A stretch of DNA of 64,000 nucleotides from Ovis canadensis (lineage: Eukaryota; Chordata; Mammalia; Artiodactyla; Bovidae). Both the position numbers and the translations under genes were made by a program. Shown here one piece after another: positions 13,312 through 64,000 of this stretch. The stretch spans positions 826,001-890,000 of the forward strand of contig NC_091262.1 in assembly GCF_042477335.2 (NCBI RefSeq), in the 5' to 3' direction. Numbering within the stretch: the first letter of the stretch is position 1; every line of letters begins with the position of its first letter. The notes beneath the pieces were generated by a model. It ran no database searches. It saw only the letters and a list, made by a program, of their open reading frames with translations, and was not told the origin of the DNA.

Positions 13312-16300
13312 TTGGCCGCCCAGGCTCAGGGCCGCACGGAGTGCACCAGGCTCCCAGGGCCCCTGGCTGGGGTCTGCCGCCCCGCACACACGGAGGCTGA
13401 CTCCCTGGGCGCCCAGCAGCTGCCTCACACTCGTAGCTTCCCTAGCGCTCTCCTCCCCAGCAGAGACGTGTGCAGCTGGTTGGGGCCAGCCCCTGCGTGT
13501 CTGGGCTCCCGCCCACAGCCCCAGCTCAGGGCAAGCAGCCCCTGAGCCAAGACCTGCAGGAGGCGCAGAGCGCCCCCACCTGGAAGCCGAGTGAACAGCT
13601 GGCGGGGAGGCGAGCCTCCTCGAGGAAAAAAGAGGCCGCCCAGCCTCGTTTGGCTCAAGCCCTACTTGGCTGGAGCCGAGTGCGCCTCTAGGACGGCAGA
13701 GCTCCAGCTCTGCTCAGAGGCCCGATCTGGCAGAGTTGCTGGCGCGAGGCTGCTGTGCCCTGGGCGATCCTTGCCCAGACTTGCCTCGCTGCTAGGCTTC
13801 CTGCCCAGGAAGGAGCAGGCTGCGCGAGGCTGGGAGACGCCACTGGCGCCTTCCTGGCCTCAGCTCCGCTCCTGCCTTGCCTTTGCACCTAGGCCTCAGG
13901 CGTCCTTGGGCAGGGCTTAGGGGCCGGTGCCTTGCACACTGCCAAGGGCTCCAGCAGGAAGAGCTCTGTGCGAGGGAAGGGAAGGGCCAGTGCAGGGCTC
14001 CTCCAGCAGTTGCTTGGCCGCCCAGGCTCAGCGCCGCACGGAGTGCACCAGGCTCCCAGGGCCCCTGGCTGGGGTCTGCAGCCCCGCACACCCGGAGGCT
14101 GACTCCCTGGGCGTCCAGCAGCTGCCTCACACACGTAGCTTCCCTCACGCTCTCCTCTCCAGCTGAGACGTGTGCAGCTGGTTGGGGCCTGCCCCTGCGT
14201 GCCTGGGCTCCCGCCCACAGCCTCAGCTCTGGGCAAGCAGCCCCTGATCCAAGACCTGCAGGATGCGCAGAGCGCCCCCACCTGGAAGTCGAGTGAACAG
14301 CTGGCGGGGAGGCGAGACTCCTCGAGGGAAGAAGAGGCAGCCCAGCCTCGTTTGGCTCAAGCCCTACTTGGCTGGACCTGAGTGCGCCTCCAGGACGGCA
14401 GAGCTCCAGCTCTGCTCAGAGGCCCGATCTGGCAGAGTTGCTGGCGCGAGGCTGCTCTGCCCTGGGCGAGCCTTGCCCAGACTTGCCTCGCTGCTAGGCT
14501 TCCTGCCCAGGAAGGAGCAGGCTGCGCGAGGCTGGGAGACGCCACTGGCGCCTTCCTGGCCTCAGCTCCGCTCCTGCCTTGCCTTTGCACCTAGGCCCCA
14601 GGCGTCCTTGGGCAGGGCTTAGGGGCCGGTGGCTTGCACACTGCCAAGGGCTCCAGCAGGAAGAGCTCTGTGCGAGGGAATGGAAGGGCCAGTGCAGGGC
14701 TCCTCTAGCGGTTGCTTGGCCGCCCAGGATCAGCGCCGCACGGAGTGCTCCAGGCTCCCAGGGCCCCTGGCTGGGGTCTGCAGCCCCGCACACCCGGAGG
14801 CTGACTCCCTGGGCGCCCAGCAGCTGCCTCACACACGTAGCTTCCCTAGCGCTCTCCTCCACAGCAGAGACGTGTGCAGCTGGTTGGGGCCTGCCCCTGC
14901 GTGCCTGGGCTCCCGCCCACAGCCCCAGCTCAGGGCAAGCAGCCCCTGAGCCAGGACCTGCAGGAGGCGCAGAGCGCCCCCACCTGGAAGCCGAGTGAAC
15001 AGCTGGCGGGGAGGCGAGCCTCCTCGAGGGAAGAAGAGGCAGCCCAGCCTCGTTTGGCTCAAGCCCTACTTGGCTGGAGCCGAGTGCGCCTCCAGGACGG
15101 CAGAGCTCCAGCTCTGCTCAGAGGCCCGATCTGGCAGAGTTGCTGGTGCGAGGCTGCTCTGCCCTGGGTGAGCCTTGCCCAGACTTTCCTCGCTGCTAGG
15201 CTTCCTGCCCAGGAAGAAGCAGGCTGCGCGAGGCTGGGAGACGCCACTGGCGTCTTCCTGGCCTCAGCTCCGCTCCTGCCTTGCCTTTGCACCTAGGCCC
15301 CAGGCGTCCTTGGGGAGGGCTTAGGGGCCGGTGGCTTGCACACTGCCAAGGGCTCCAGCAGGAAGAGCTCTGTGCGAGGGAAGGGAAGGTCCAGTGCAGG
15401 GCTCCTCCAGCAGTTGCTTGGCCGCCCAGACTCAGCGCCGCACGGAGTGCACCAGGCTCCCAGGGCCCCTGGCTGGGGTCTGCAGCCCCGCACACCCGGA
15501 GGCTGACTCCCTGGGCGCCCAGCAGCTGCCTCACGCACGTAGCTTCCCTAGCGCTCTCCTCCCCAGCAGAGACGTGTGCAGCTGCTTGGGGCCTGCCCCT
15601 GCGTGCCTGGGCTCCCGCCCGCAGCCGCAGTTCAGGGCAAGCAGCCCCTGAGCCAAGACCTGCAGGAGGCGCAGAGCACCCCCACCTGGAAGGCGAGTGA
15701 ACAGCTGGCGGGGAGGCGAGCCTCCTCGAGGGAAGAAGAGGCAGCCCAGCCCCGTTTGGCTCAAGCCCTACTTGGCTGGAGCCGAGTGCGCCTCCAGGAC
15801 GGCAGAGCTCCAGCTCTGCTCAGAGGCCCGATCTGGCAGAGTTGCTGGCGCGAGGCTGCTCTGCCCTGGGCGAGCCTTGCCCAGACTTGCCTCGCTGCTA
15901 GGCTTCCTGCCCAGGAAGGAGCAGGCTGCGCGAGGCTGGGAGACGCCACTGGCGCCTTCCTGGCCTCAGCTCCGCTCCTGCCTTGCCTTTGCACCTAGGC
16001 CCCAGGCGTCCTTGGGGAGGGCTTAGGGGCCGGTGGCTTGCACACTGCCAAGGGCTCCAGCAGGAAGAGCTCTGTGCGAGGGAAGGGAAGGGACAGTGCA
16101 GGGCTCCTCCAGCGGTTGCTTGGCCGCCCAGGCTCAGGAGCGCACGGAGTGCACCAGGCTCCCAGTGCCCCTGGCTGGGGTCTGCAGCCCCGCACACCCG
16201 GAGGCTGACTCCCTGGGCGCCCAGCAGCTGCCTCACACACGTAGCTTCCCTAGCACTCTCCTGCCCAGCAGAGACGTGTTCAGCTGGTTGGGGCCAACCC

Positions 16301-19300
16301 CTGCGTGTCTGGGCTCCCGCCCACAGCCCCAGCTCAGGGCAAGCAGCCCCTGAGCCAAGACCTGCAGGATGCGCAGAGCGCCCCCACCTGGAAGTCGAGT
16401 GAACAGCTGGCGGGGAGGCGAGCCTCCTCGAGGGAAGAAGAGGCAGCCCAGCCTCGTTTGGCTCAAGCCCTACTTGGCTGGAGCTGAGTGCGCCTCCAGG
16501 ACGGCAGAGCTCCAGCTCTGCTCAGAGGCCCGATCTGGCAGAGTTGCTGGCGCCAGGCTGCTCTGCCCTGGGCGAGCCTTGCCCAGACTTGCCTCGCTGC
16601 TAGGCTTCCTGCCCAGGAAGGAGCAGGCTGCGCGAGGCTGGGAGACGCCACTGGCGCCTTCCTGGCCTCAGCTCCGCTCCTGCCTTGCCTTTGGACCTAG
16701 GCCCCAGGCGTCCTTGGGGAGGGCTTAGGGGCCGGTGGCTTGCACACTGCCAAGGGCTCCAGCAGGAAGAGCTCTGTGCGAATGAAGGGAAGGGCCAGTG
16801 CAGGGCTCCTCCAGCGGTTGCTTGGCCGCCCAGGCTCAGTGCCGCACGGAGTGCACCAGGCTCCCAGGGCCCCTGGCTGGGGTCTGCAGCCCCGCACACC
16901 CGGAGGCTGACTCCCTGGGCGCCCAGCAGCTGCCTCACACACGTAGCTTCCCTAGCGCTCTACTCCCCAGCAGAGACGTGTGCAGCTGCTTGGGGCCTGC
17001 CCCTGCGTGCCAGGGCTCCCGCCCACAGCCTCAGCTCAGGGCAAGCAGCCCCTGAGCCAAGACCTGCAGGATGCGCAGAGCGCCCCCACCTGGAAGTCGA
17101 GTGAACAGCTGGCGGGGAGGCGAGCCTCCTCGAGGGAAGAAGAGGCAGCCCAGCCTCGTTTGGCTCAAGCCCTACTTGGCTGGAGCCGAGTGCGCCTCCA
17201 GGACGGCAGAGCTCCAGCTCTGCTCAGAGGCCCGATCTGGCAGAGTTGCTGGTGCGAGGCTGCTCTGCCCTGGGTGAGCCTTGCCCAGACTTTCCTCGCT
17301 GCTAGGCTTCCTGCCCAGGAAGAAGCAGGCTGCGCGAGGCTGGGAGACGCCACTGGCGTCTTCCTGGCCTCAGCTCCGCTCCTGCCTTGCCTTTGCACCT
17401 AGGCCCCAGGCGTCCTTGGGGAGGGCTTAGGGGCCGGTGGCTTGCACACTGCCATGGGCTGCTGCAGGAAGAACTCTGTGCGAGGGAAGGGAAGGTCCAG
17501 TGCAGGGCTCCTCCAGCAGTTGCTTGGCCGCCCAGACTCAGCGCCGCACGGAGTGCACCAGGCTCCCAGGGCCCCTGGCTGGGGTCTGCAGCCCCGCACA
17601 CCCGGAGGCTGACTCCCTGGGCGCCCAGCAGGTGCCTCACACACGTAGCTTCCCTTGCGCTCTCCTCCCCAGCAGAGATGTGTGCAGGTGGTTCGGGCCT
17701 GCCCCTGCGTGCCTGGGCTCCCGCCCACAGCCCCAGCTCAGGGCAAGCAGCCCCTGAGCCAAGACCTGCAGGAGGCGCAGAGCGCCCCCACCTGGAAGCC
17801 GAGTGAACAGCTGGCGGGGAGGCGAGCCTCCTCGAGGGAAGAAGAGGCAGCCCAGCCTCGTCTGGCTCAAGCCCTACTTGGCTGGAGCCGAGTGCGCCTC
17901 CAGGACGGCAGAGCTCCAGCTCTACTCAGAGGCCCGATCTGGCAGAGTTGCTGGCGCGAGGCTGCTCTGCCCTGGGCGAGCCTTGCCCAGACTTGCCTCG
18001 CTGCTAGGCTTCCTGCCCAGGAAGGAGCAGGCTGTGCAAGGCTGGGAGACGCCACTGGCGCCTTCCTGGCCTCAGCTCCGCTCCTGCCTTGCCTTTGCAC
18101 CTAGGCCCCAGGCGTCCTTGGGGAGGGCTTAGGGGCCGGTGGCTTGCACACTGCCAAGGGCTCCAGCAGGAAGAGCTCTGTGCGAGGGAAGGGAAGGGAC
18201 AGTGCAGGGCTCCTCCAGCGGTTGTTTGGCCGCCCAGACTCAGCGCCGCACGGAGTGCACCAGGCTCCCAGGGCCCCTGGCTGGGGTCTGCAGCCCCGCA
18301 CACCCGGAGGCTGACTCCCTGGGCGCCCAGCAGGTGCCTCACACACGTAGCTTCCCTAGCGCTCTCCTCCCCAGCAGAGACGTGTGCAGCTGGTTGGGGC
18401 CTGCCCCTGCGTGCCTGGGCTCCCGCCCACAGCCCCAGCTCAGGGCAAGCAGCCCCTGAGCCAAGACCTGCAGGAGGCGCAGAGCGCCCCCACCTGGAAG
18501 GCGAGTGAACAGCTGGCGGGGAGGCGAGCCTCCTTGAGGGAATAAGAGGCAGCCCAGCCTCGTTTGGCTCAAGCCCTACTTGGCTGGAGCCGAGTGCGCC
18601 TCCAGGACGGCAGAGCTCCAGCTCTGCTCAGAGGCCCGATCTGGCAGAGTTGCTGGCGCGAGGCTGCTCTGCCCTTGGCGAGCCTTGCCCAGACTTGCCT
18701 CGCTGCTAGGCTTCCTGCCCAGGAAGGAGCAGGCTGCGCGAGGCTGGGAGACACCACTGGCGCCTTCCTGGCCTCAGCTCCGCTCCTGCCTTGCCTTTGC
18801 ACCTAGGCCCCAGGCGTCCTTGGGGAGGGCTTAGGGGCCGGTGGCTTGCACACTGCCAAGGGCTCCAGCAGGAAGAGCTCTGTGCGAGGGAAGGGAAGGG
18901 CCAGTGCAGGGCTCCTCCAGCGGTTGTTTGGCCGCCCAGGCTCAGGGCCGCATGGAGTGCACCAGGCTCCCAGGGCCCCTGGCTGTGGTCTGCAGCCCCG
19001 CACACCCGAAGGGTGACTCCCTGGGCGCCCAGCAGCTGCCTCACACACGTAGCTTCCCTAGCACTCTCCTCCCCAGCAGAGACGTGTTCAGCTGGTTGGG
19101 GCCAGCCCCTGCGTGTCTGGGCTCCCGCCCACAGCCCCAGCTCAGGGCAAGCAGCCCCTGAGCCAAGACCTGCAGGAGGCGCAGAGCGCACCCACCAGGA
19201 AGCCCAGTGAACAGCTGGCGGGGAGGCGAGCCTCCTCGAGGGAAGAAGAGGCAGCCCAGCCTCGTTTGGCTCAAGCCCTACTTGCCTGGATCCGAGTGCG

Positions 19301-55985: not shown

Positions 55986-57479
55986 GGCCCCCGGCGTCCT
56001 TGGGGAAGGCTTAGGGGCCTGTGGCTTGCACACTGCCAAGGACTCCAGCAGGGAGAGCTCTGCTAGAGCGAAGGGTAGGGCAAGTGCAGGGCTCCTCCAG
56101 TGGTTGCTTGGCCGACCAGACTCAGCGCCTCACAGAGTGCACTAGGCTCCCAGGGCCCCTGGCTGGGGTCTGCAGCCCTGCACACCTGGAGGCTGACTCC
56201 CTGGGCGCCCAGCAGCTGCCTCACACACGTAGCTTCCCTAGCGGTCTCCTCCCCAGTAGAGAGGTGTGCAGCAGGTTGTGGCCTGCCCCTGCGTGCCTGG
56301 GCTCCCGCCCACAGCCCCAGCTCAGGGCAAGCATCCCCTGAGCCAAGACCAGCCGGAGGCGCAGAGCTCCCAGCGTTGAAACCGAGTGATCAGCATGAGG
56401 GAGGCGAGCCTCCTCGAGGGAAGTAGAGGCAGCCCAGCCGAGTGCGGCTCAAGCCCTGCTTGGCTGGATCCGAGCGCGCCTCCAGTATGGCAGAGCTCCA
56501 GCTCTGCTCAGAGGCCTCATGTGGCAGAGTTGCTGGCGCGAGGCTGCTCTACCCTGGGCGAGCCTTGCCCAGACTTGCCTCACTGCTAGGCTTCCTGCCC
56601 AGGAAGGAGCAGGCTGCGTGAGCCTGGGAGACGCCACTGGCGCCTTCCTGACCTCAGCTCCGCATCTGCCTTGCCTTTGAACCTAGACCCCAGGCGTCCG
56701 TGGGTAGTGCTTAGGGGCCGGTGGCTTGCATACTGCCAAGGGCTCAGGCAGGGAGAGCTCTGTGAGAGGGAAGGGAAGGGCAAGTGCAGGGCTCCTTCAG
56801 CGGTTGCTTGGTCGCCCAGACTCAGCGCCGCACGAAGAACCGCACCTCCCAGGGCCACTGGCTGGGGTCTCCAGCCTGGCATACCTGGAGGCTGACTCCG
56901 TGGGTGCCCATCAGCTGCCTCTCACACGTCGTTCCCTTGCGGTCTCCTCTCCAGCAGAGACGTGTGCAGGTGGTTGGGTCCTGCACCTGTGTGTCTGGGC
57001 TCCCGCCCACAGCCCCAGCTCAGGGGAAGCAGCCCCTGATCCTAGACCAGAATGAGGGGCAGGGAGCCGGCGCCTGGAAGCCGAGTGAACAGCATGCGGG
57101 AATCGAGCTTCCTAGGGGGAAGACGAAGCAGCCCAGCCGCCTTAGGCTGCAAGCCCTTCTTCGGTGGAGTCGAGTGCGCCTCCAGGATGGCAGAGCTCCA
57201 GCTCTGCTCAGAGGCCCGATCTGGCAGAGTTCCTGGCGCGAGGCTACTCTGCCCTGGGCGAACCCTGCCCAGACTTGCCTCTCTGCTAGGCTTCCTACCC
57301 AGGAAGGAGCAGCCTTTGCGAAGTTGGGTGACGCTACTGGCGCCTTCCTGGCCTCAGCTCCACTCCTGCATTGCCTTTGCACCTAGGCCCCAGGCGTCCT
57401 TTGGGAGGCCTTAGGGGCCGGTGGGTTCCACACTGCCAAGGGCTCCCATAGTGAGAGGTCTGTTCAAGGGAAGGGATGG
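55986..57479. repeat. Last monomers of the array, ending in a truncated copy
   Basis: After the edge subfamily, the units starting near 56.0 and 56.7 kb are closer again to the main type ('cctcacacacgtagcttcc' at about 56220, 'gcaggttgtggcctgcccc', 'ccccagctcagggcaagc'), although diverged. The final copy runs through 'ggtgggttccacactgcc' and stops at about 57479, just after 'gaagggatggg', roughly 60 bp past the start of the representative monomer. From 57480 no satellite similarity is visible. Confidence 0.88.
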
Positions 57480-57513
57480 GTATATTTGGAGTACAATCCT
57501 GTATCAGATGTGA

Positions 57514-57775
57514 GGCCCACACCTTCACCCTGAATGCTCACTCTGAACCCTCACCCCGAAACCTTACCCTCACCCACACCCTCACCCTGAACCCTCACCC
57601 TCACCCTCTCCCTGAACCCTCACCCTCACCCTCTCCCTGAACCCTCACCCTCACCCTCTCCCTGAATCCTCACCCTCATCCTGAATCCTAACCCTCACCC
57701 TGAACCCTCACCCTTAATCCTTACCCTCACCCTCATCCTGAACCCTCACACCTCACCCCTCACCCTAACAAGTTT
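57514..57775. repeat. CCCTCA/CCCTGAA minisatellite next to the satellite edge
   Basis: A C-rich, G-poor strand made of short units CCCTCA, CCCTGAA, CCCTCTCCCTGAA and variants such as CCTTAA. At 57591-57615, 57616-57640 and 57641-57665 the same 25-bp unit occurs three times without a mismatch; it is built of three CCCTCA-like motifs and a CCCTCTCCCTGA end. The units are one or two changes from the telomeric CCCTAA motif, which suggests a degenerate telomere-derived tract. Simple expansion of a C-rich seed is the alternative. Confidence 0.9.
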
Positions 57776-57797
57776 GGAGGGCTGTTCCACGAACTCT

Positions 57798-57852
57798 AAC
57801 CTTTACCCTACCCTAACCCGACCCCCATCCACATCCTAACCCTAACCCACAT
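57798..57852. repeat. Short interstitial telomere-like (CCCTAA) tract
   Basis: Contains 'tttaccctaccctaaccc' and, after a short interruption, 'cctaaccctaaccc' ending near 57848, so two short runs match the vertebrate telomere repeat with few errors. The C-rich strand is on the plus strand. In a true left telomere that would place the chromosome interior to the right, yet satellite lies to the left, so this is interstitial relative to this sequence. Confidence 0.8.
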
Positions 57853-58979
57853 CGTAGTCACGCCCTCAGCCCTATACTTACCCTTGAAGTACCTACCCGC
57901 ATCTTCTTCATTTTTGACACTTCCCATGCATAACAAAAGACGAGGTTGTAAGGTTTCAAACATGGATCCAAGACCCATTATCCACATAAAAGGGATATAA
58001 ATACTATTTAAATCTCTTGCATCACCAAAATACCTCTCCACCACTTATCCAGTCGCCATTGATGGATCACATCTATCTCATACATTTTATAACTTAGCAA
58101 TCAAATACGCACCAGGACTCTGGGTAATTATAGAGACAAGATTTATTTATACCATAAATATTTCAACAAATTCCACTTTCTACGATGAGTTCAATCTTCA
58201 CAAAAGTAGGATGAACAGCACCTGTTTCCACTAGGATCCATAGAGCGTGAAAATCTTAATGATGACCACCAGAAAGGTCAGCACGGTTGATATCACAGAT
58301 TTTTCAGTGTTCCAATACAAGTTCTACCCAAATCCATAAAGAAAGACATACGCATAGGAAACTACAAATTGAAAGCAAGTCTATTGAGATAAATATTGGA
58401 CATCAATTGTATGAATCTTTAAGGCATAACTGCAGACATTCTTCAGACATTCTTCAAATTCATAGAATGACAACAAAGTATGGCTACGTACAATCCATTC
58501 GGTTTTATGAACCACTCATGAATAACCTCACAAGCCATTTGAAACCAGATGACAATTTCAAATAGCTTTGATCTACAAACAAGGCTGTAAGACAGAAAGT
58601 TAAAATCGAAATACATGAAGTAAATCCTCAATAGATATGAAAACATCCCATGGTAGTGAAGTCAATTAGCATTAGTTATTAGGGCTTTCATGCACAGACT
58701 CATCTCTGATCGATGTGATCCCAATTCATATTTGGCAAAAAATACGAAAGCTGATCTTAACAGTCATATTATTTTTCTTTGTACCCCTAAAAAGAAAAAT
58801 GAACATGAAAAACTAAATTAAGCTTGGAGGCTCACATTTCCCAATCGGTATACAAAGCAACAGCATGTCAAACTTTCTAATTCACATATGCATTTAAATG
58901 AAATTGGATGAAATACCCCTAAATAAACACATACTTCTATGCCCAATGTTTCACAAGGCAGAAAACGCTCAATGAATGA
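57853..58979. other. AT-rich interval with no gene or named repeat recognised
   Basis: Composition flips from GC-rich satellite to AT-rich. Open frames here reach at most about 92 codons and show no recognisable domain. A tandem 'cattcttcagacattcttca' sits near 58437-58456. Some of this interval could belong to the neighbouring LTR element or to a further, more decayed stretch of the mitochondrial insertion. By eye I could not align it to the expected ND4/ND5 continuation, so it stays unassigned. Confidence 0.5.
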
Positions 58980-59695
58980 AACTGAGAGGGTAACAGCCAG
59001 GAAGGCCAGGGGTCTCCAAAGGGAGGAAATGGGGTGCAAGTGTCAGACAGTTGTTATCTGTCACTTCCGAGGCAGGAGGAAACAAGCTGTTATCTTTTTT
59101 CCCCTTCTTGATACAAATTTAAACAGAGATTTTCTCTTACAATTCTGTGTTGCTATAATGACACCTGGTTCCGCCTGAACTTCACTTTTCTCATACTTTG
59201 AGCTGACCAAGGCATTTTTCTCATGGAAAGGTTTGCCTTAAGCTATGTGAATGTACTATGTATTTACCCTAGACTCTATCTTCAAGTAGGTTCTGCCTAA
59301 AGGCTCAGAACTGACTTGACAAACCAATATGCTTTACTCATACATGGCTCTCCTGATCTATGTGAATGAAGCTATCCATTTGCTCATATCAATCGTTTTA
59401 TGGCCCAGGATGACTCACCTGGTGCCACGGTCATCTCCATATATCTTGTGGGTGAGGGGTCTGCTGCCATTCCTTTCTCTAATGAGTAGACTGCTAGTAG
59501 CTAGATAACATCCAGCCAAAGATGAGTAGGGGGGCACTCTTTCTGCCCCCTTCTGATGTCTATGTCAGAAGCTTTCTCTCTTTTATACTTTAATAAAATG
59601 TTGGGACACAAAAGCTCTGACTGATCAAGCCTCATCACTGGCCCCGGGTTGAATTCTTCCTCTAAGGAGCCCAAGAATTCAAGCATCTTTCATGG
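58980..59695 (+). mobile_element. Probable solo LTR of a ruminant endogenous retrovirus
   Basis: The stretch begins near 'tgagagggtaacagcc' and contains segments I recognise from bovine LTRs of the BTLTR1 kind, such as 'gacacctggttccgcctgaa' and 'ggctctcctgatctatgtg'. Near the right end there is a TATA-like 'cttttatactttaataaaat' with an AATAAA signal at about 59591, followed by a C/T-rich stretch, as in an R-U5 region. No internal viral coding sequence adjoins it, so it appears to be a solo LTR. The family name is from memory and the ends are uncertain; the left end could lie up to 100 bp further left. Confidence 0.6.
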
Positions 59696-59749
59696 TTAGA
59701 CAACAACCTTTCCAAACAATGGTCTTTTCAAAAAAAAAATGATGATAAG

Positions 59750-60989
59750 TGATGAGTATGCATATGTCTACGAATGAAATGGGACCTATATGTCAAACCA
59801 CATAAAAATATATCTTCCCTCAACATACATATAACACAACCAGGCCTTCACATGCATCGATTCTCCAACTATCAAGTCATACAAATATGGATGTAAAATA
59901 TCACAATACATTCCAAAGTTTAAAAGTGATGGATATTGACTTTCGCCCGCTGGTGCTTCTTTTTATGTCATCTCCATTATATTAGCTATGACAACGAATC
60001 ATGTGCTGTGCGAAGTCACTTACATTGTGTCCAACTCCTTGGGATCATATGGACTAGGCCCCACCAGGCTCCTCTCTCCATGAGATTCTCTAGGCAAAGA
60101 TACTGGAGGGGGTTGCCATGCTCTCCCTCAGGAGATCTTCCTGCCCCAGGGATGGAATCCATACCTCCCATGTCTCCTGCATGGGTATGTTCTGCATGTT
60201 CTTTACCACTAGAACCACCTGGGAAGCCCCAAGACACATGAACATCAGTGGATTTGGGGATCCACGGGGCATATACAGAACCATTCCTCCAACAAAACTG
60301 AAGAATGACTTTAAAATCTCAAACAAAACATGAGTATATGTGTTCACAAACTTCATGGAGCAAGGGTTTCTTCGATCTGAAAACTGGCATCGATGAAGGA
60401 CTGTGTGAAGAATACTTCAAAGTCTATTTGGCAAACACAGCCTACGTTGGCTATATTTAGTCCTCAGTTGAATGGAATGTCATGAGTACTGGTCATTTCA
60501 AATAAGTAGCCTATGACGCTGTTTACACTTATTGGGACGCGTGGTATACCACATTCACACATTTCAGTAGCATTGGTGCAAAAACGATACATTTCTCAGG
60601 GGAAGCTTCTACATGGACTCCTGGGATCAGAGCTCTAACTCATACACACATACTTTTCCTTTTAAAATGATCCTGCATGATAAGCAAACAAAACACTGGA
60701 TGAACACCTAGACGGTGAGCTCTGTACTAAATGATTTTAAAGCCAGTAGATGGAATGAGCTGATGAGGAAGACTACAAACGAGTCATCTTCTTCAACTTG
60801 GTCAAACTGCTCATAGTCATACAAGTGAATGAAAAGTTGAGCCTGTTGTCATTAAATCTGTTTAAAAGAAATAGAATAATAAAACAAATTAGTAAATCTT
60901 ATTTTCTTAATAAACATTGTATTATTTCTGCACAGCTTTGTTACTGGCATGAATAGAATATCTACAATAATAACTTGTCACAGTGAAAT
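59750..60989 (-). pseudogene. MT-ND4 pseudogene: NUMT: ND4 5' portion (NADH dehydrogenase subunit 4), split by a SINE
   Basis: The clearest block is minus-strand 'gacaacaggctcaactttt' (plus 60832-60850), matching ND4's 'gacaacagcctcaactttt'. Further on, 'gcagaggaatgg'-type similarity gives a peptide 'LKSFFSFVGGMVLYMP' near 60290-60330, comparable to 'LLKLGGYGMMRIT'. Past the SINE (60003-60240), 'atggagatgacataaaaaga' and later 'cattcgtagacatatgcata' fit ND4's 'ctccatctgcctacgacaa' and 'gaacgcactcacagtcgca' in order. Similarity is patchy between blocks. The insertion appears to end near 59750, close to the LTR. Confidence 0.75.
60003..60240 (-). mobile_element. Bov-tA-type SINE inside the ND4 remnant
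   Basis: Read on the minus strand it begins 'ggggcttcccaggtggttct', passes through a box B-like 'ttccatccctggggcag', and has the Bov-A core 'ggcaaccccctccagtatc', 'ggagaggagcctggtgggg' and 'agtcacttcgcac'. A minus-strand translation runs 'GFPGGSSGKE', then 'NPLQYLCLENLMERGAWW', a signature very familiar from bovine SINEs. Bov-tA elements are pecoran-specific tRNA-Glu/Bov-A composites, so this fixes the host lineage. No clear target-site duplication was seen. It interrupts the mitochondrial sequence and so is younger than the NUMT. Confidence 0.9.
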
Positions 60990-61261
60990 GGATTCACATT
61001 CGATATCGATTCACATCTATAATTGATGCCATAGCTGTTTGATACTATTGCTTGAATGAATGCAACTTATGTGACTTCACAAACTACAAACACGACTAAC
61101 ATAATAGGTATTAAAAAACCTTGAGTGACATGAGCGTGAAGACTTAGTAGAGTTGCTCTCAAGAATAATGATACTATTATTCGCTCTAGCCATAGTACTG
61201 GAATCTGTACATTAACACCCCTGCAAAACAAAAGGAAAGGATAGAATAATAATAAAGGAAC
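60990..61261 (-). pseudogene. MT-ND4L pseudogene: NUMT: ND4L (NADH dehydrogenase subunit 4L)
   Basis: Minus-strand blocks in order: 'tatggctagagcgaataata', 'gtatcattattcttgagagc', 'aatacctattatgttagtcg', 'tgtttgtagtttgtgaag' and 'agtatcaaacagctatggc' (plus 61028-61046). ND4L has 'tatgtctagaaggaataata', 'ttatcactatttgtaatagc', 'atacccattatcctgctag', 'tatttgcagcctgtgaagc' and 'agtatcaaacacatatggc'. ND4L is a small membrane subunit of complex I and overlaps ND4 in mitochondria. Frameshifts and a region of poor similarity at the 5' end show decay. Confidence 0.88.
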
Positions 61262-61329
61262 TTCATAACTATATTCCTACTGTAAACATTCAACACTATG
61301 TTTTCTTTTAAACTGACTTTCATATTTGG
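61262..61329 (-). pseudogene. NUMT: tRNA-Arg remnant
   Basis: After the ND3 end the minus strand reads 'atatgaaagtcagtttaaaa' followed by 'gaaaacatagtgttgaatgt', comparable to tRNA-Arg 'tatggtatttagtttaaaa' and 'caaaataaatgatttcgact'. The plus-strand segment 'ttttcttttaaactgacttt' is at 61301-61320. The 3' half is decayed. Confidence 0.7.
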
Positions 61330-61652
61330 TCTACTGTAACCTCTTCTGTGTTCATTTTATGCTAAACTTATTGCTAACAGTAAAATTACCATACGAGCTC
61401 TAATTAATTTTTTTTTTTACTTGCAAAGCTACTGATAGAACCAAAGGCCAATATCTACATCAAACAGGAGAAACGGAATGGAAACTGTAAACAATTTTAT
61501 GGAAGAACATTTCCGTGCTCCTATTCAGTCAAATGGGCATTCAAAAGGATGTGATTTTTCTGAAAGTTTATTTCAGAAACTTGGAATTGGATGACTGCAA
61601 ACAATAAAACTAACAATATATTGATACATAATATTAATAATATACAGTGGGT
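61330..61652 (-). pseudogene. MT-ND3 pseudogene: NUMT: ND3 (NADH dehydrogenase subunit 3)
   Basis: Minus-strand matches in order: 'ttcagaaaaatcacatcc', 'ttttgaatgcccatttgact', 'ttcttccataaaattg' (plus 61492-61508), 'tttctcctgtttgatgtag' and 'ctgttagcaataagtttagc' at the 3' end. They correspond to ND3's 'tcagaaaaaacaagccc', 'tatgaatgtggatttgacc', 'ttctccataaaatt', 'tttctcctatttgacctag' and 'ctagccgtaagcctagcc'. The length of about 323 bp is slightly below the usual ~346. A poly-A/T tract at about 61410-61420 has distorted the middle. ND3 is a membrane subunit of complex I. Confidence 0.9.
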
Positions 61653-61721
61653 CATTCTTTTTTTATTCTGCCACAGCTAACAGACAGAAAGTCAGTTGTC
61701 ATAACTACTACTAACATAAGA
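61653..61721 (-). pseudogene. NUMT: tRNA-Gly remnant
   Basis: Directly after the COX3 end the minus strand reads 'gttagtagtagttatgacaa', 'ctgactttctgtctgttagc' and 'aaaaaagaatg'. Mammalian mitochondrial tRNA-Gly reads 'attcttttagtattaactag', 'tacagctgacttccaatcag' and ends 'aaaaagaata'. Order, length and anticodon arm position fit; the TCC anticodon region is altered. Confidence 0.82.
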
Positions 61722-62404
61722 CCCTCACCGATAAGTGAAGATATATAGGAAAATCCATAATAGCTCTAAAAACCATCAAAGATAAAATGGTAATTAAAAA
61801 ATACACTGACAGTTTAGCTGGTATAAGAAACAGGATGATTATGAAAGCAAAGCCAACAATCATGGATAGGCCATGGAAGCCCGTGGCTGTCACCAGTGTT
61901 GACTTATATCCTTCATCTGAGGTTGTTAAAAGCGCTTGGTAAAATCCAGAGGTTTGCAGCAGTGGTAACCTCCTGAACAGACTGAAATAAAAAGGGTTTC
62001 CAGAATATCCTGATGATTTCCATCTACTAGGCTGTGATGAGCTCAAGCAATGCATACTCCAGAGGACAGAAGACAGACAGGTTGGGAACACGTCTACTGC
62101 ACTTACGGAGAAAGGGAATGTTGCTGCTCAGCCTAGTACAAGTGTAGAAGCAACACCTTGGTGATTCGACCTTTAAAGACTCGATACATATGAGAACGAC
62201 TGGTATGAATAAACCTTCAGAAGTGCTTTCTCAGACCTCCTCCCATCATAAGCACAAGCATAATGAAAACGCTGAGTTTTCATGGTCTCACCCAAAATAA
62301 GACTCACTTATGGCTTTGCTTTGAGAATAGTTGAACTACTCATTGTTCAAGAGAAATGATCCTTTCTTCTCTGAAGATTTGTGAATCATTCACAGGGTGT
62401 GGTG
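61722..62404 (-). pseudogene. MT-CO3 pseudogene: NUMT: COX3 (cytochrome c oxidase subunit 3)
   Basis: The minus strand keeps an open stretch of 126 codons (61711-62091) that includes the COX3 signature ATGFHG and its flanks. 'SDEGYKSTLVTATGFHGL' corresponds to 'SDGVYGSTFFVATGFHGL' of mammalian COX3, with the preceding LLQAS-like and following I-I-G-like residues in register. Upstream DNA matches include 'gagctcatcacagcctagta' and 'atgatgg...gagaaagcac', the latter in COX3's N-terminal third. A small deletion lies near 62150. COX3 is a membrane subunit of complex IV. The frame is not complete, and TGA codons would need the mitochondrial code. Confidence 0.93.
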
Positions 62405-62480
62405 AATAAACTACTTAAGGGTCTAATACATAAAAATGCAATAGGCTAAGCACAGAGATGTTTTTCTCCCTTTCTCAAAG
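62405..62480 (-). pseudogene. MT-ATP6 pseudogene: NUMT: 3' end of ATP6 (ATP synthase subunit a)
   Basis: The minus strand has 'tgtgcttagcctattgc' followed by 'ttatgtattagacccttaag', comparable to the ATP6 end 'tttgcagtagctataatcc', 'gcctatgtatttaccctctt'. This is immediately upstream of COX3, as in mitochondria. The segment is short and the match modest; position supports it more than similarity does. Confidence 0.5.
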
Positions 62481-62519
62481 GATGGAACATTTTGTATTTG
62501 CACTGATTTTATGTCTTGA

Positions 62520-62800
62520 CTTCATGTACAATTATATACTGATTTTTTTAGTTGACATACAATAGGACTAAAAATATTGATATAATACTGATAACTCATG
62601 TTGGTATGTGTGGTTGTCACATAGGATTCACAGGAGATTTAAATTCACAGTTGTCAACGTAAAGGATGAATGCTATTTAGCTTCTTCGTGAATCTAGACC
62701 ACGAATGAAGAGTTTTCCTCAACATATTTCACTGAGAGAAATACAAGGATGATAGGCATAATACTATGCTTCGACTCATGGATATCTAAGCATTGCTCAC
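62520..62800 (-). pseudogene. MT-CO2 pseudogene: NUMT: COX2 partial (cytochrome c oxidase subunit 2)
   Basis: On the minus strand the order 'ttatgcctatcatcc', 'cttcattcgtggtctagatt', 'gcattcatcctttacgttg' and 'catgagttatcagtattat' follows the COX2 series that in mammals reads 'ctgcccgccatcatc', 'cttctttacgaattctata', 'aacccatctcttacagt' and 'tatgagtatacagattatg'. COX2 carries the CuA centre of complex IV. The match is weaker than for COX1 or COX3. The 5' end of COX2 and everything between here and the end of ATP6 (tRNA-Lys, ATP8) was not found, so an internal deletion is likely. Confidence 0.6.
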
Positions 62801-62924
62801 AATACAGATCTGATTTTCAACATCAGGGTTCTTTCAGTGTCCTTGAACAGCATTTGTTTTTCTGTATACAGAAGAAAAAACTCATGAGTATCAAACTGGT
62901 TCACATAAAACATGTGTATGAATT

Positions 62925-63020
62925 GTTATCTTCCTGAACCAGGGATCAAACCCACATCACTTCCCCCTCCTGCACTGGTAGGCAGATTTTTTATTTATCA
63001 ACTGTGCCACCTAGGAATCG
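62925..63020 (-). mobile_element. tRNA-derived ruminant SINE fragment inside the NUMT
   Basis: The plus strand reads 'gaaccagggatcaaaccca', 'ctgcactggtaggcagattt' and 'tgccacctaggaat'. This is the complement of the tRNA-Glu-like head shared by ruminant SINEs (box B 'gggttcgatccctgg' type and 'aatctgcctgcca'). It sits between the COX1 and COX2 remnants. It is too short and diverged to assign a subfamily (CHR/SINE2-like or Bov-tA-like). Confidence 0.7.
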
Positions 63021-63029
63021 ACATACATT

Positions 63030-63399
63030 TCAAGGACCACTGCCATCAGCTTCTACTGTTCATGACCAAAGTAGGAGAAACAACATTGGAAGAAGTACTC
63101 ATAAGGGTACTCATAGGAAGTACTCATAAGTCAAGGAACTGTTATACTGGGTACTCTCGTTGTTACTGGGACAAGTCAGTTCCTCCGATGATGATGGGTA
63201 TAACTGAAAAATTATTACAAATGCATGGGCTGCGATGTCTACGTGATAAATGTGTTCCTCTTATACTATTGCTTCAGGGATGCCTACTTCAGCATGAAGG
63301 AATGCACTTCAAGGGATGCCCGCTATTCCAGCTCAAGCAACAGATAGTGAAGTGCAGATCATTGTCCTTTGTTGAAAATAATCAGCACTTTGTCAACAT
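63030..63399 (-). pseudogene. MT-CO1 pseudogene: NUMT: COX1 5' portion (cytochrome c oxidase subunit 1)
   Basis: The COX1 start codon is the complement of CAT at 63397-63399. Near-identical blocks to mammalian COX1 include plus-strand 'gttgaaaataatcagc' (63371-63386), 'ttccagctcaagcaacagat' (63326-63345) and 'ttacaaatgcatgggctg' (63215-63232), in the right order and spacing, and then the region of 'gtagaagctgg' near 63050. COX1 is the catalytic, haem-copper-binding subunit of complex IV. Only about the first fifth to quarter is present, with frameshifts and a small local duplication of 'gaagtactcataag' near 63091-63131. The 226-codon plus-strand open frame over this region is antisense to COX1 and is not a gene. 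Confidence 0.9.
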
Positions 63400-63400
63400 A

Positions 63401-63464
63401 GGGAACATGCCAGAGGGACCCTTGGGATGGAACTCTAAAAACAGGTTGGGCCCTCTTTTTGCCA
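63401..63464 (+). pseudogene. NUMT: tRNA-Tyr remnant (light-strand gene)
   Basis: The plus strand runs 'ggaacatgccagagggac', then 'ggaactctaaaaacaggttg' and ends 'ggccctctttttgcca'. Mitochondrial tRNA-Tyr begins 'ggtaaaatggctgag', has 'gtaaatctaaagacagggg' through the anticodon arm, and ends 'ccctttttacca'. It starts two bases from the COX1 initiation codon, as in mammals. Confidence 0.8.
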
Positions 63465-63520
63465 AGCCCTGCGATAAAATACAAATCAGAAAAAGAAAAA
63501 TAGCATCGGTTTTGTCAGGA
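63465..63520 (+). pseudogene. NUMT: tRNA-Cys remnant (light-strand gene)
   Basis: It begins 'agccctgcgataaaat' directly after the end of the tRNA-Tyr remnant, which is the start and abutting arrangement of mitochondrial tRNA-Cys. The rest ('acaaatcagaaaaagaaaaa') is strongly decayed, so the right limit is set by the OL remnant. Confidence 0.65.
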
Positions 63521-63553
63521 CTTCCTCATCTTTTCTTTCTCGGTAGCAGGAAG
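63521..63553. pseudogene. NUMT: remnant of the light-strand replication origin (OL)
   Basis: Between the tRNA-Asn and tRNA-Cys remnants, where mammalian mtDNA has the OL stem-loop, lies an inverted repeat: 'cttcct' at 63521-63526 and 'aggaag' at 63548-63553, separated by a C/T-rich loop. The OL stem in mammals begins 'cttctcccgcc'. Only the outer stem survives. Confidence 0.6.
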
Positions 63554-63628
63554 CAGACATTGAGGCCAGAGGACTGCAGGATTTCATTGTGAACTAACGT
63601 TGGGTGGGGTGGAAGCTCATCACTCTAG
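63554..63628 (+). pseudogene. NUMT: tRNA-Asn remnant (light-strand gene)
   Basis: The plus strand has 'cagacattgaggccagagga', then 'ttgtgaactaacgttgggt' and ends 'catcactctag'. Mitochondrial tRNA-Asn has the same frame of landmarks: 'tagattgaagccagttgatt', 'gctgttaactaa' at the anticodon loop, and the closing 'ggtctag'. Match quality is among the best in the tRNA cluster. Confidence 0.78.
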
Positions 63629-63629
63629 T

Positions 63630-63694
63630 AAGAATGTGGTTCAATAAAATGGAATTTCATTCACTTCATGGACATAGAGTTCTATAATCCTTCA
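63630..63694 (+). pseudogene. NUMT: tRNA-Ala remnant (light-strand gene)
   Basis: The plus strand reads 'aagaatgtggttcaataaaa', then 'atttcattcacttcatggac' and ends in 'aatccttc'. This parallels mitochondrial tRNA-Ala, whose gene starts 'aaggat/ggcttagcttaa', has 'tgcattcaattgatgcaag' in the anticodon arm, and ends 'cagtcctt'. As expected for a light-strand gene it lies opposite to COX1 and ND2. Confidence 0.72.
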
Positions 63695-63695
63695 T

Positions 63696-63765
63696 TAAGG
63701 AATTCAATAAGCTATATTTCCTTACACCTTCACAATCTCTTGGTTTACGAGAACATCAATTGCTA
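63696..63765 (-). pseudogene. NUMT: tRNA-Trp remnant
   Basis: The plus strand reads 'aggaattcaataagctatat' and then 'aatctcttggtttacgag' between ND2 and the tRNA-Ala remnant. These correspond to the complement of mammalian mitochondrial tRNA-Trp, including the region of its 'accaagagcc' anticodon-arm neighbourhood. Length of about 70 bp and position are as expected. Several stem positions are changed, so no functional cloverleaf is expected. Confidence 0.7.
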
Positions 63766-64000
63766 GTCCAGCACTTATACAATGAGTGTTACAGGTAGTA
63801 TGAATGTATAAATGATGATGAGCAATGACAGGAAGTTTATTTAATCTCTGTTTGAATTCTTGATTTTTTATATAATTTTTTATAATATCCTTACAGATGT
63901 GAATATTTTACTGACATGTATAAATACACGTTGAGTAGTGCTATGATAACTCATAGTGTTGGCACAATAAATATCATGGTTACTATGTGCTTTTCATATA
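63766..64000 (-). pseudogene. MT-ND2 pseudogene: NUMT: ND2 3' portion (NADH dehydrogenase subunit 2), truncated by the window end
   Basis: On the minus strand this segment contains 'atagcactactcaacgtgta' near 63920-63940, which closely matches the ND2 stretch encoding Ala-Leu-Leu-Asn-Leu-Tyr. It continues through the Leu/Thr-rich C-terminal region to a 'ttgtataag' at the expected end of ND2 just before tRNA-Trp. In mitochondria ND2 is a membrane subunit of complex I. Here the frame is broken by indels and an AT-rich expansion ('attatataaaaaatc'). The 5' part lies beyond the right edge. Confidence 0.8.

Follow-up and report, generated by a model that had tools for sequence, protein, structure and literature searches.

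Several kilobases of mitochondrial DNA (mtDNA) were amplified in the nucleus of the domestic cat, where the tandem Numt is, going by the title of the cited report, a recent transfer (Lopez et al. 1994, cited in PMC7897518). Mammalian nuclear mitochondrial DNA segments (NUMTs) shared by several orders also exist, among them, in the part of PMC10764098 that treats them, one that may go back to the lineage of the eutherian ancestor. The pseudo-homologous regions of human acrocentric short arms are presented in passages of PMC10172130 as near-identical between non-homologous chromosomes, as recombinant mosaics and as linked to Robertsonian fusions. Here we describe a decayed NUMT of the bighorn sheep (Ovis canadensis), found at the right end of a 64,000-nucleotide stretch of nuclear DNA (the window, C18:826001-890000) and belonging to a non-satellite cassette set in a satellite array. 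It probably travels as a passenger in a block that was amplified recently and is common to acrocentric short arms, and our best reading is that its sequence is old and its present positions are young.

As in the cat, several kilobases of mtDNA have been amplified; unlike the cat Numt as characterized in that part of PMC7897518, the sheep NUMT is strongly decayed, forms part of an 18.6-kb unit, is embedded in a satellite and occurs on many chromosomes. It seems similarly old to the orthologous NUMTs, as covered in those sections of PMC10764098, from which it differs in being multicopy, satellite-embedded and dated from decay only. The human acrocentric short arm would, by analogy with the relevant passages of PMC10172130, be the nearest parallel, although the sheep case comes from one assembly, involves other sequences (a NUMT and a 702-bp satellite) and concerns more chromosomes. 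We liken the satellite by length and GC content to caprine SatII, which has the same GC-rich unit near centromeres and whose unit in goat is given as 702 bp in PMC11579321; the pertinent passages of that paper hold no NUMT-bearing cassette and its main text contains "numt" 0 times. The same count applies to the main texts of the cattle telomere-to-telomere X paper and of the bighorn assembly paper (PMC12747268), the latter also having "mitochondri" 0 times. Among the open PMC papers listed by our searches, none, going by title and beginning of abstract, deals with a NUMT that lies within caprine satellite or on acrocentric short arms.

The NUMT is real: it is derived from mtDNA, lies on the minus strand and is decayed. 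The animal's own mtDNA (contig C42, 16,463 bp, to which a cattle tRNA cluster led when run against the genome; all 12 protein genes sought in it have stop-free translations) matched the cassette in four collinear minus-strand high-scoring segment pairs (HSPs) of 58-62% identity, with E values of 3e-77, 6e-65, 6e-40 and 3e-15 (blastn, word size 7, lenient scores). Together they span window positions 60392-64013, corresponding to mtDNA 11045-4688, from ND4 to ND2. Nothing significant was obtained with the reversed mtDNA (best E 0.39) or with five shuffles (best E 0.07). An earlier note, made from the letters of this DNA, had seen there a decayed ND2-to-ND4 segment in vertebrate gene order on the minus strand; the small-word alignment bears this out, the matches being collinear and not confined to one short segment. 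The nuclear flanks were confirmed, as C18 measures 83.86 Mb and satellite lies on either side of the cassette. Coding function has been lost, with frameshifts in most genes, stops and three internal losses.

Protein evidence agrees with the nucleotide matches. Motifs of ND4L, COX3 and COX1 are visible by eye in the mitochondrial-code translation, and a frameshift-tolerant alignment of the minus strand under a decay model, with 12 shuffles as null, placed COX1, COX2, COX3, ND2, ND3, ND4L and ND4 in order and far above the null: COX3 scored 388 (null maximum 58), COX1 336 (75), ND4 206 (69), ND3 187 (53), ND4L 186 (58), COX2 158 (58) and ND2 114 (61). ATP8 (73, null maximum 54) is not decisive on score alone because plus-strand noise reaches 75. 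The protein-alignment signals of four further genes are not credible: ND1 (74) stayed below its null maximum of 78, CYTB scored better on the plus strand and there also fell short (67 against 69), and ND5 (75, null 67) and ATP6 (70, null 64) showed a slight excess at places overlapping other genes. Pfam matched four of six NUMT pieces, with two COX3 pieces and one ND3 piece above the cut-off and ND4L below it (17.4 bits), and had no match to the remaining two of six, from COX1 and COX2; a PDB search matched COX3 chains. A C-rich stretch at the left edge produced spurious plus-strand matches for all 12 proteins (scores between 63 and 151), as did a G-rich stretch at the right edge for several; both sets were discarded as composition effects, and ND5, CYTB and ND1 were not accepted on the left. 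Searches for RNA genes returned three weak Rfam matches in window 57000-64000, all under the gathering score, and in stretches L009 and L010 neither an Rfam match at the gathering score nor an ARAGORN tRNA; a 12S primer had no match among viral contigs or genome contigs.

Such a sequence is easily missed, as the earlier note supposed. Against the own mtDNA, megablast and dc-megablast found nothing and blastn with word size 11 gave three short matches. The NUMT under study is also missing from the 32 matches listed when the cattle tRNA cluster was run against the genome. Those 32 places include many other NUMTs with the cluster, 75-98% identical to the query; three, for instance, are spaced about 270 kb apart in the region of 212 Mb on C3.

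The copies are numerous and widely spread. We searched 2,974,185,958 bases in 42 contigs, whose numbers we take as chromosome numbers; the bighorn assembly comprises 26 autosomes, X and Y according to the sections of PMC12747268 concerned, and from these together with the contig numbering we take the acrocentric state of the contigs. A 43-base COX3 tag of the NUMT (up to three mismatches) occurred at 165 places, 163 forward and two reverse, and the control at none in either orientation. Among the 100 places listed, all exact, one was on C2, one (reverse) on C3 and ninety-eight on C4-C22, where every contig was hit, always forward and 0.67-1.91 Mb from the contig start. C1 had none among the matches listed, and a mismatched copy would not show if the listing was ordered by mismatches. 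For the remaining 65 places, positions are known only for copies on C22, C23, C25 and C26, which adds C23, C25 and C26 to the contigs with copies. Longer queries behaved alike: window 60000-63900 gave at least 38 matches, all reported at 100% and the window included (38 of 7116 candidates scored), and a 1,221-base piece at least 40, all at 100% (40 of 181 candidates scored). The spacing of copies is near-regular in places (27.9 kb on C22, 25.1 kb on C14).

The sequence itself is old. Identity to the own mtDNA over the three codon positions in turn is 625/942 (0.663), 693/944 (0.734) and 471/938 (0.502), the order to be expected of a divergence that included a phase as coding mtDNA. Of 323 first and second codon positions fixed by residues with at least 95% conservation among database sequences (120 of COX1 and 120 of COX3), the NUMT retains 236 and has changed at 87. 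Simulated decay of 0.10-0.40 was recovered within 0.02; the observed alignment scores (323 and 357) lie below those simulated at 0.25 (480 and 704), suggesting that the true decay may be higher. The Jukes-Cantor distance from 0.27 is about 0.33 which, at a mammalian rate of 2.2e-9 per year, would amount to about 150 My. This is older than we believe, so we limit the claim to an old NUMT, probably of tens of millions of years, the age being read from decay.

With regard to the source, the best COX3 scores came from ruminant and carnivore-like sequences (the latter so classed by eye, on their ND3 tails), human lying about 35 log units lower, and among 12 ND3 sequences cattle ranked best and human worst. 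At tRNA-cluster sites differing between cattle and human sequences, the NUMT agreed with cattle at 33, with human at 12 and with neither at 12. The COX1 and ND4 rankings were uninformative, the top COX1 score belonging to a bird; because ATA is translated as I in some database entries, to the detriment of the scores, I and M were merged for the COX3 and ND3 rankings. The source lineage thus appears closer to cattle and carnivore-like mammals than to human. We do not narrow it to a clade, since some COX3 ranks run contrary: one hedgehog (Laurasiatheria) was worst of 29, and armadillo and mammoth stood above both pangolins.

An old NUMT beside a ruminant satellite, as the earlier note had it, is supported. 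The same note also took the pericentromeric position to have been stable for a long time, that is, a single ancient NUMT at one stable site. Both the changed constrained sites and the codon-position identities would fit such an account, but it is contradicted by the 165 tag places on many contigs and by the near-identity of copies across chromosomes, and it is hardly tenable any longer unless these copies are assembly artefacts. Given these tag places and near-identical copies, the position cannot be dated by how old the sequence is.

The homogeneity of the copies is marked. Eighteen copies from 13 contigs differ by 0-15 substitutions per 3,500 bases, ten of them (C14, C18, C20, C22, C23) being identical over that length, and over a longer stretch of about 6.9 kb (less in one copy) 10 copies on C18, C20, C22 and C23, eight of which were top-ranked matches, show 0-6 substitutions between them. 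A 10-base indel is common to C5, C9, C10 and C11. In the four-gamete test on the 18 copies, 31 of 66 pairs of informative sites show all four combinations and the minimum number of recombination events (Rmin) is 4, variant combinations that imply recombination. One short recent duplication burst, with no continuing exchange between chromosomes, would explain the ten identical copies; the mosaic variant combinations speak against it, as do the 4 and 7 private changes of the C2 and C3 copies where the sampled acrocentrics have few, and we consider it unlikely.

The copies on C2 (C2:116258204, forward) and C3 (C3:109529294, reverse) are the single ones listed for their contigs, stand in opposite orientation and carry the most private changes. 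They are possibly relics of fused short arms, a suggestion resting on two copies; the two orientations are what an acrocentric fusion could leave on either arm.

What is repeated is larger than the NUMT. The non-satellite DNA between satellite arrays, here called the cassette, measures 18,635 bp on C18 (883481-902115) and 18,678 bp on C22 (902319-920996), and complete satellite spacers are 6.4 kb (C14), 9.2 kb (C22) and 38.6 kb (C18) long. The satellite junction is common to four further copies on the left and two on the right, 92-96% identical over 700 bp. To the left of the cassette, window 1-57480 is a GC-rich satellite (GC about 0.63-0.69) with an autocorrelation peak at 702, SatII-like by unit length. 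Units are 0.83-0.96 alike up to about 30 kb of the window and, from 40 kb toward the cassette, 0.45-0.64 alike at best offset. At the right end of the cassette, a degenerate G-rich repeat of more than 2 kb contains TTAGGG in exact form 33 times. Its left end (57481-57870) is a C-rich, telomere-like degenerate repeat with 17 CCCTCA, 6 CCCTGA and only 3 exact CCCTAA (the maximum of 200 shuffles is 4); a telomeric origin of this end is likely, not proven. Should both ends be telomeric, they point outward in the manner of chromosome ends. The motif TTAGGG is present once in most satellite units, and the motif is thus not by itself a telomere mark here.

The differing satellite spacers, together with contig-specific variants and indels in the copies, also bear on whether the multiplication is mainly an assembly artefact, with one or a few true loci copied into satellite tangles. 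Such arrays are hard to assemble, and the bighorn assembly has 3 gaps and 8.69 Mbp unplaced, as stated in that portion of PMC12747268; considering the differences among spacers and copies, we regard an artefact as very improbable.

A passenger NUMT in a recently amplified block remains in our view the probable explanation. About 6.4 kb of mtDNA (ND2-ND4) would have entered the nuclear genome long ago, presumably during double-strand break repair; it has decayed without function through the substitutions, frameshifts and deletions that it now carries. The NUMT lies in an 18.6-kb block with apparently telomere-like ends (the right clear, the left weaker), which was presumably joined to the 702-bp satellite once, because the junctions are identical. 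Satellite and block may then have multiplied in tandem, reaching the number and places of copies seen at the short-arm ends of many chromosomes, and unequal and ectopic recombination or gene conversion across non-homologous chromosomes may keep the copies alike. Several points weigh against this explanation. The sample came partly from top-ranked matches, favouring identity; exchange is deduced from one haploid assembly rather than observed; recurrent amplification from one source could mimic part of the identity; not all copies are regularly spaced, the spacers ranging over 6.4-38.6 kb; and the cassettes read at length are those of C14, C18 and C22 only. A further-reaching proposal sees in the cassette, with its old NUMT and with telomere-like ends turned outward, a module captured from a chromosome end that almost all sheep acrocentric short arms share as a substrate for recombination, exchanged today between non-homologous chromosomes and marking or having promoted the Robertsonian fusions of the large metacentrics. 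It is rather doubtful, and weakened because the exact CCCTAA of the left end do not exceed the shuffles.

The extent of the NUMT in the window is somewhat smaller than the earlier note described. Instead of starting at 59750, it has its left edge at about 60392, some 640 bp further right, with 60250-60391 assigned neither way and 57900-60009 giving against mtDNA only E 0.027 on the other strand. Its length inside the window is about 3.6 kb rather than at least 4.2 kb, and its distance from the satellite end (57480) about 2.9 kb rather than 2.3 kb. It does run out of the window, but only by about 13 bp (HSP end 64013). For a far rightward continuation, ND2 1-285 scored 39 (null maximum 49), 59 (54) and 56 (42) in three nested stretches, the last falling inside the already known ND2 part, and ND1 45 (43), 49 (55) and 45 (46); both were rejected, and blastn of 63900-68000 returned the known NUMT end only.

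From left to right on the minus strand, the NUMT begins with ND4 residues about 171-295 (60392-60784; mtDNA 11045-10661; 58.3%, E 3e-15) and the 5' part of ND4 (60819-60985; mtDNA 10342-10173), within an HSP at 60819-62213. ND4L (60980-61289; scores 193 and 186) and ND3 (61325-61604; score 194) follow, then tRNA-Gly at 61654-61719, with 44 of 66 sites identical to cattle tRNA-Gly (score 50, null maximum 40.5), and COX3 residues 57-261 at 61719-62251 (score 370). In the next gap, tRNA-Arg by itself is not significant (score 33, null maximum 42, with its best regional place elsewhere); it was rejected and is covered only within the longer HSP. The 5' part of ATP6, ATP8, tRNA-Lys and the 3' part of COX2 occupy 62306-62936 (mtDNA 8110-7451; 61.8%, E 6e-40), and COX1 residues 1-134 lie at 63005-63399, in the HSP 63005-64013 (E 6e-65). 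The tRNA cluster W-A-N-OL-C-Y (63400-63764) fills the space between COX1 and ND2; it is identical to human at 238 of 357 sites (score 185.5, null maximum 70.5 over 57830-64000) and to cattle at 247 of 360. The 3' part of ND2 (residues about 273-347) takes up 63766-64000. Internally, about 1.7 kb has been lost from COX1 to COX2, 0.75 kb from ATP6 into the first part of COX3, and 0.3 kb of ND4 between its two segments; COX1 past residue 134, the 5' part of COX2 and most of ATP6 are gone.

Besides the NUMT, the cassette holds SINEs (short interspersed elements) and two LTR-like (long terminal repeat) stretches, labels which we give provisionally, by eye. What we take to be a Bov-tA-like SINE (60010-60241, minus strand) lies just outside the NUMT, and a presumed SINE-like fragment (62937-63004, minus strand) sits at the 1.7-kb mtDNA deletion, between HSPs where there is no mtDNA match. 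The presumed LTR-like element at 59000-59720, also outside the NUMT, has an inverted relative in the cassette, the two stretches (cassette 1504-2232, window 58984-59712, and cassette 13998-14761) being 74.5% alike. Among TTAGGG variants at C18:898881-900040 (cassette about 15400-16560) there are tandem copies of a roughly 0.43-kb unit, 79.8% identical between copies, in which A and B boxes like those of tRNA genes can be made out by eye, although neither ARAGORN nor Rfam has a match there.

The amplified NUMTs known to us are young mtDNA copies; here mtDNA already short of about a quarter of its conserved sites was multiplied as a passenger, and we suggest no function for it. The age of a NUMT is no guide to the age of its position, and such copies escape ordinary searches. 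As a sequence tag independent of the satellite, this NUMT may serve to follow exchange between non-homologous sheep chromosomes, and it could be used to ask what became of the short arms in Robertsonian fusions.

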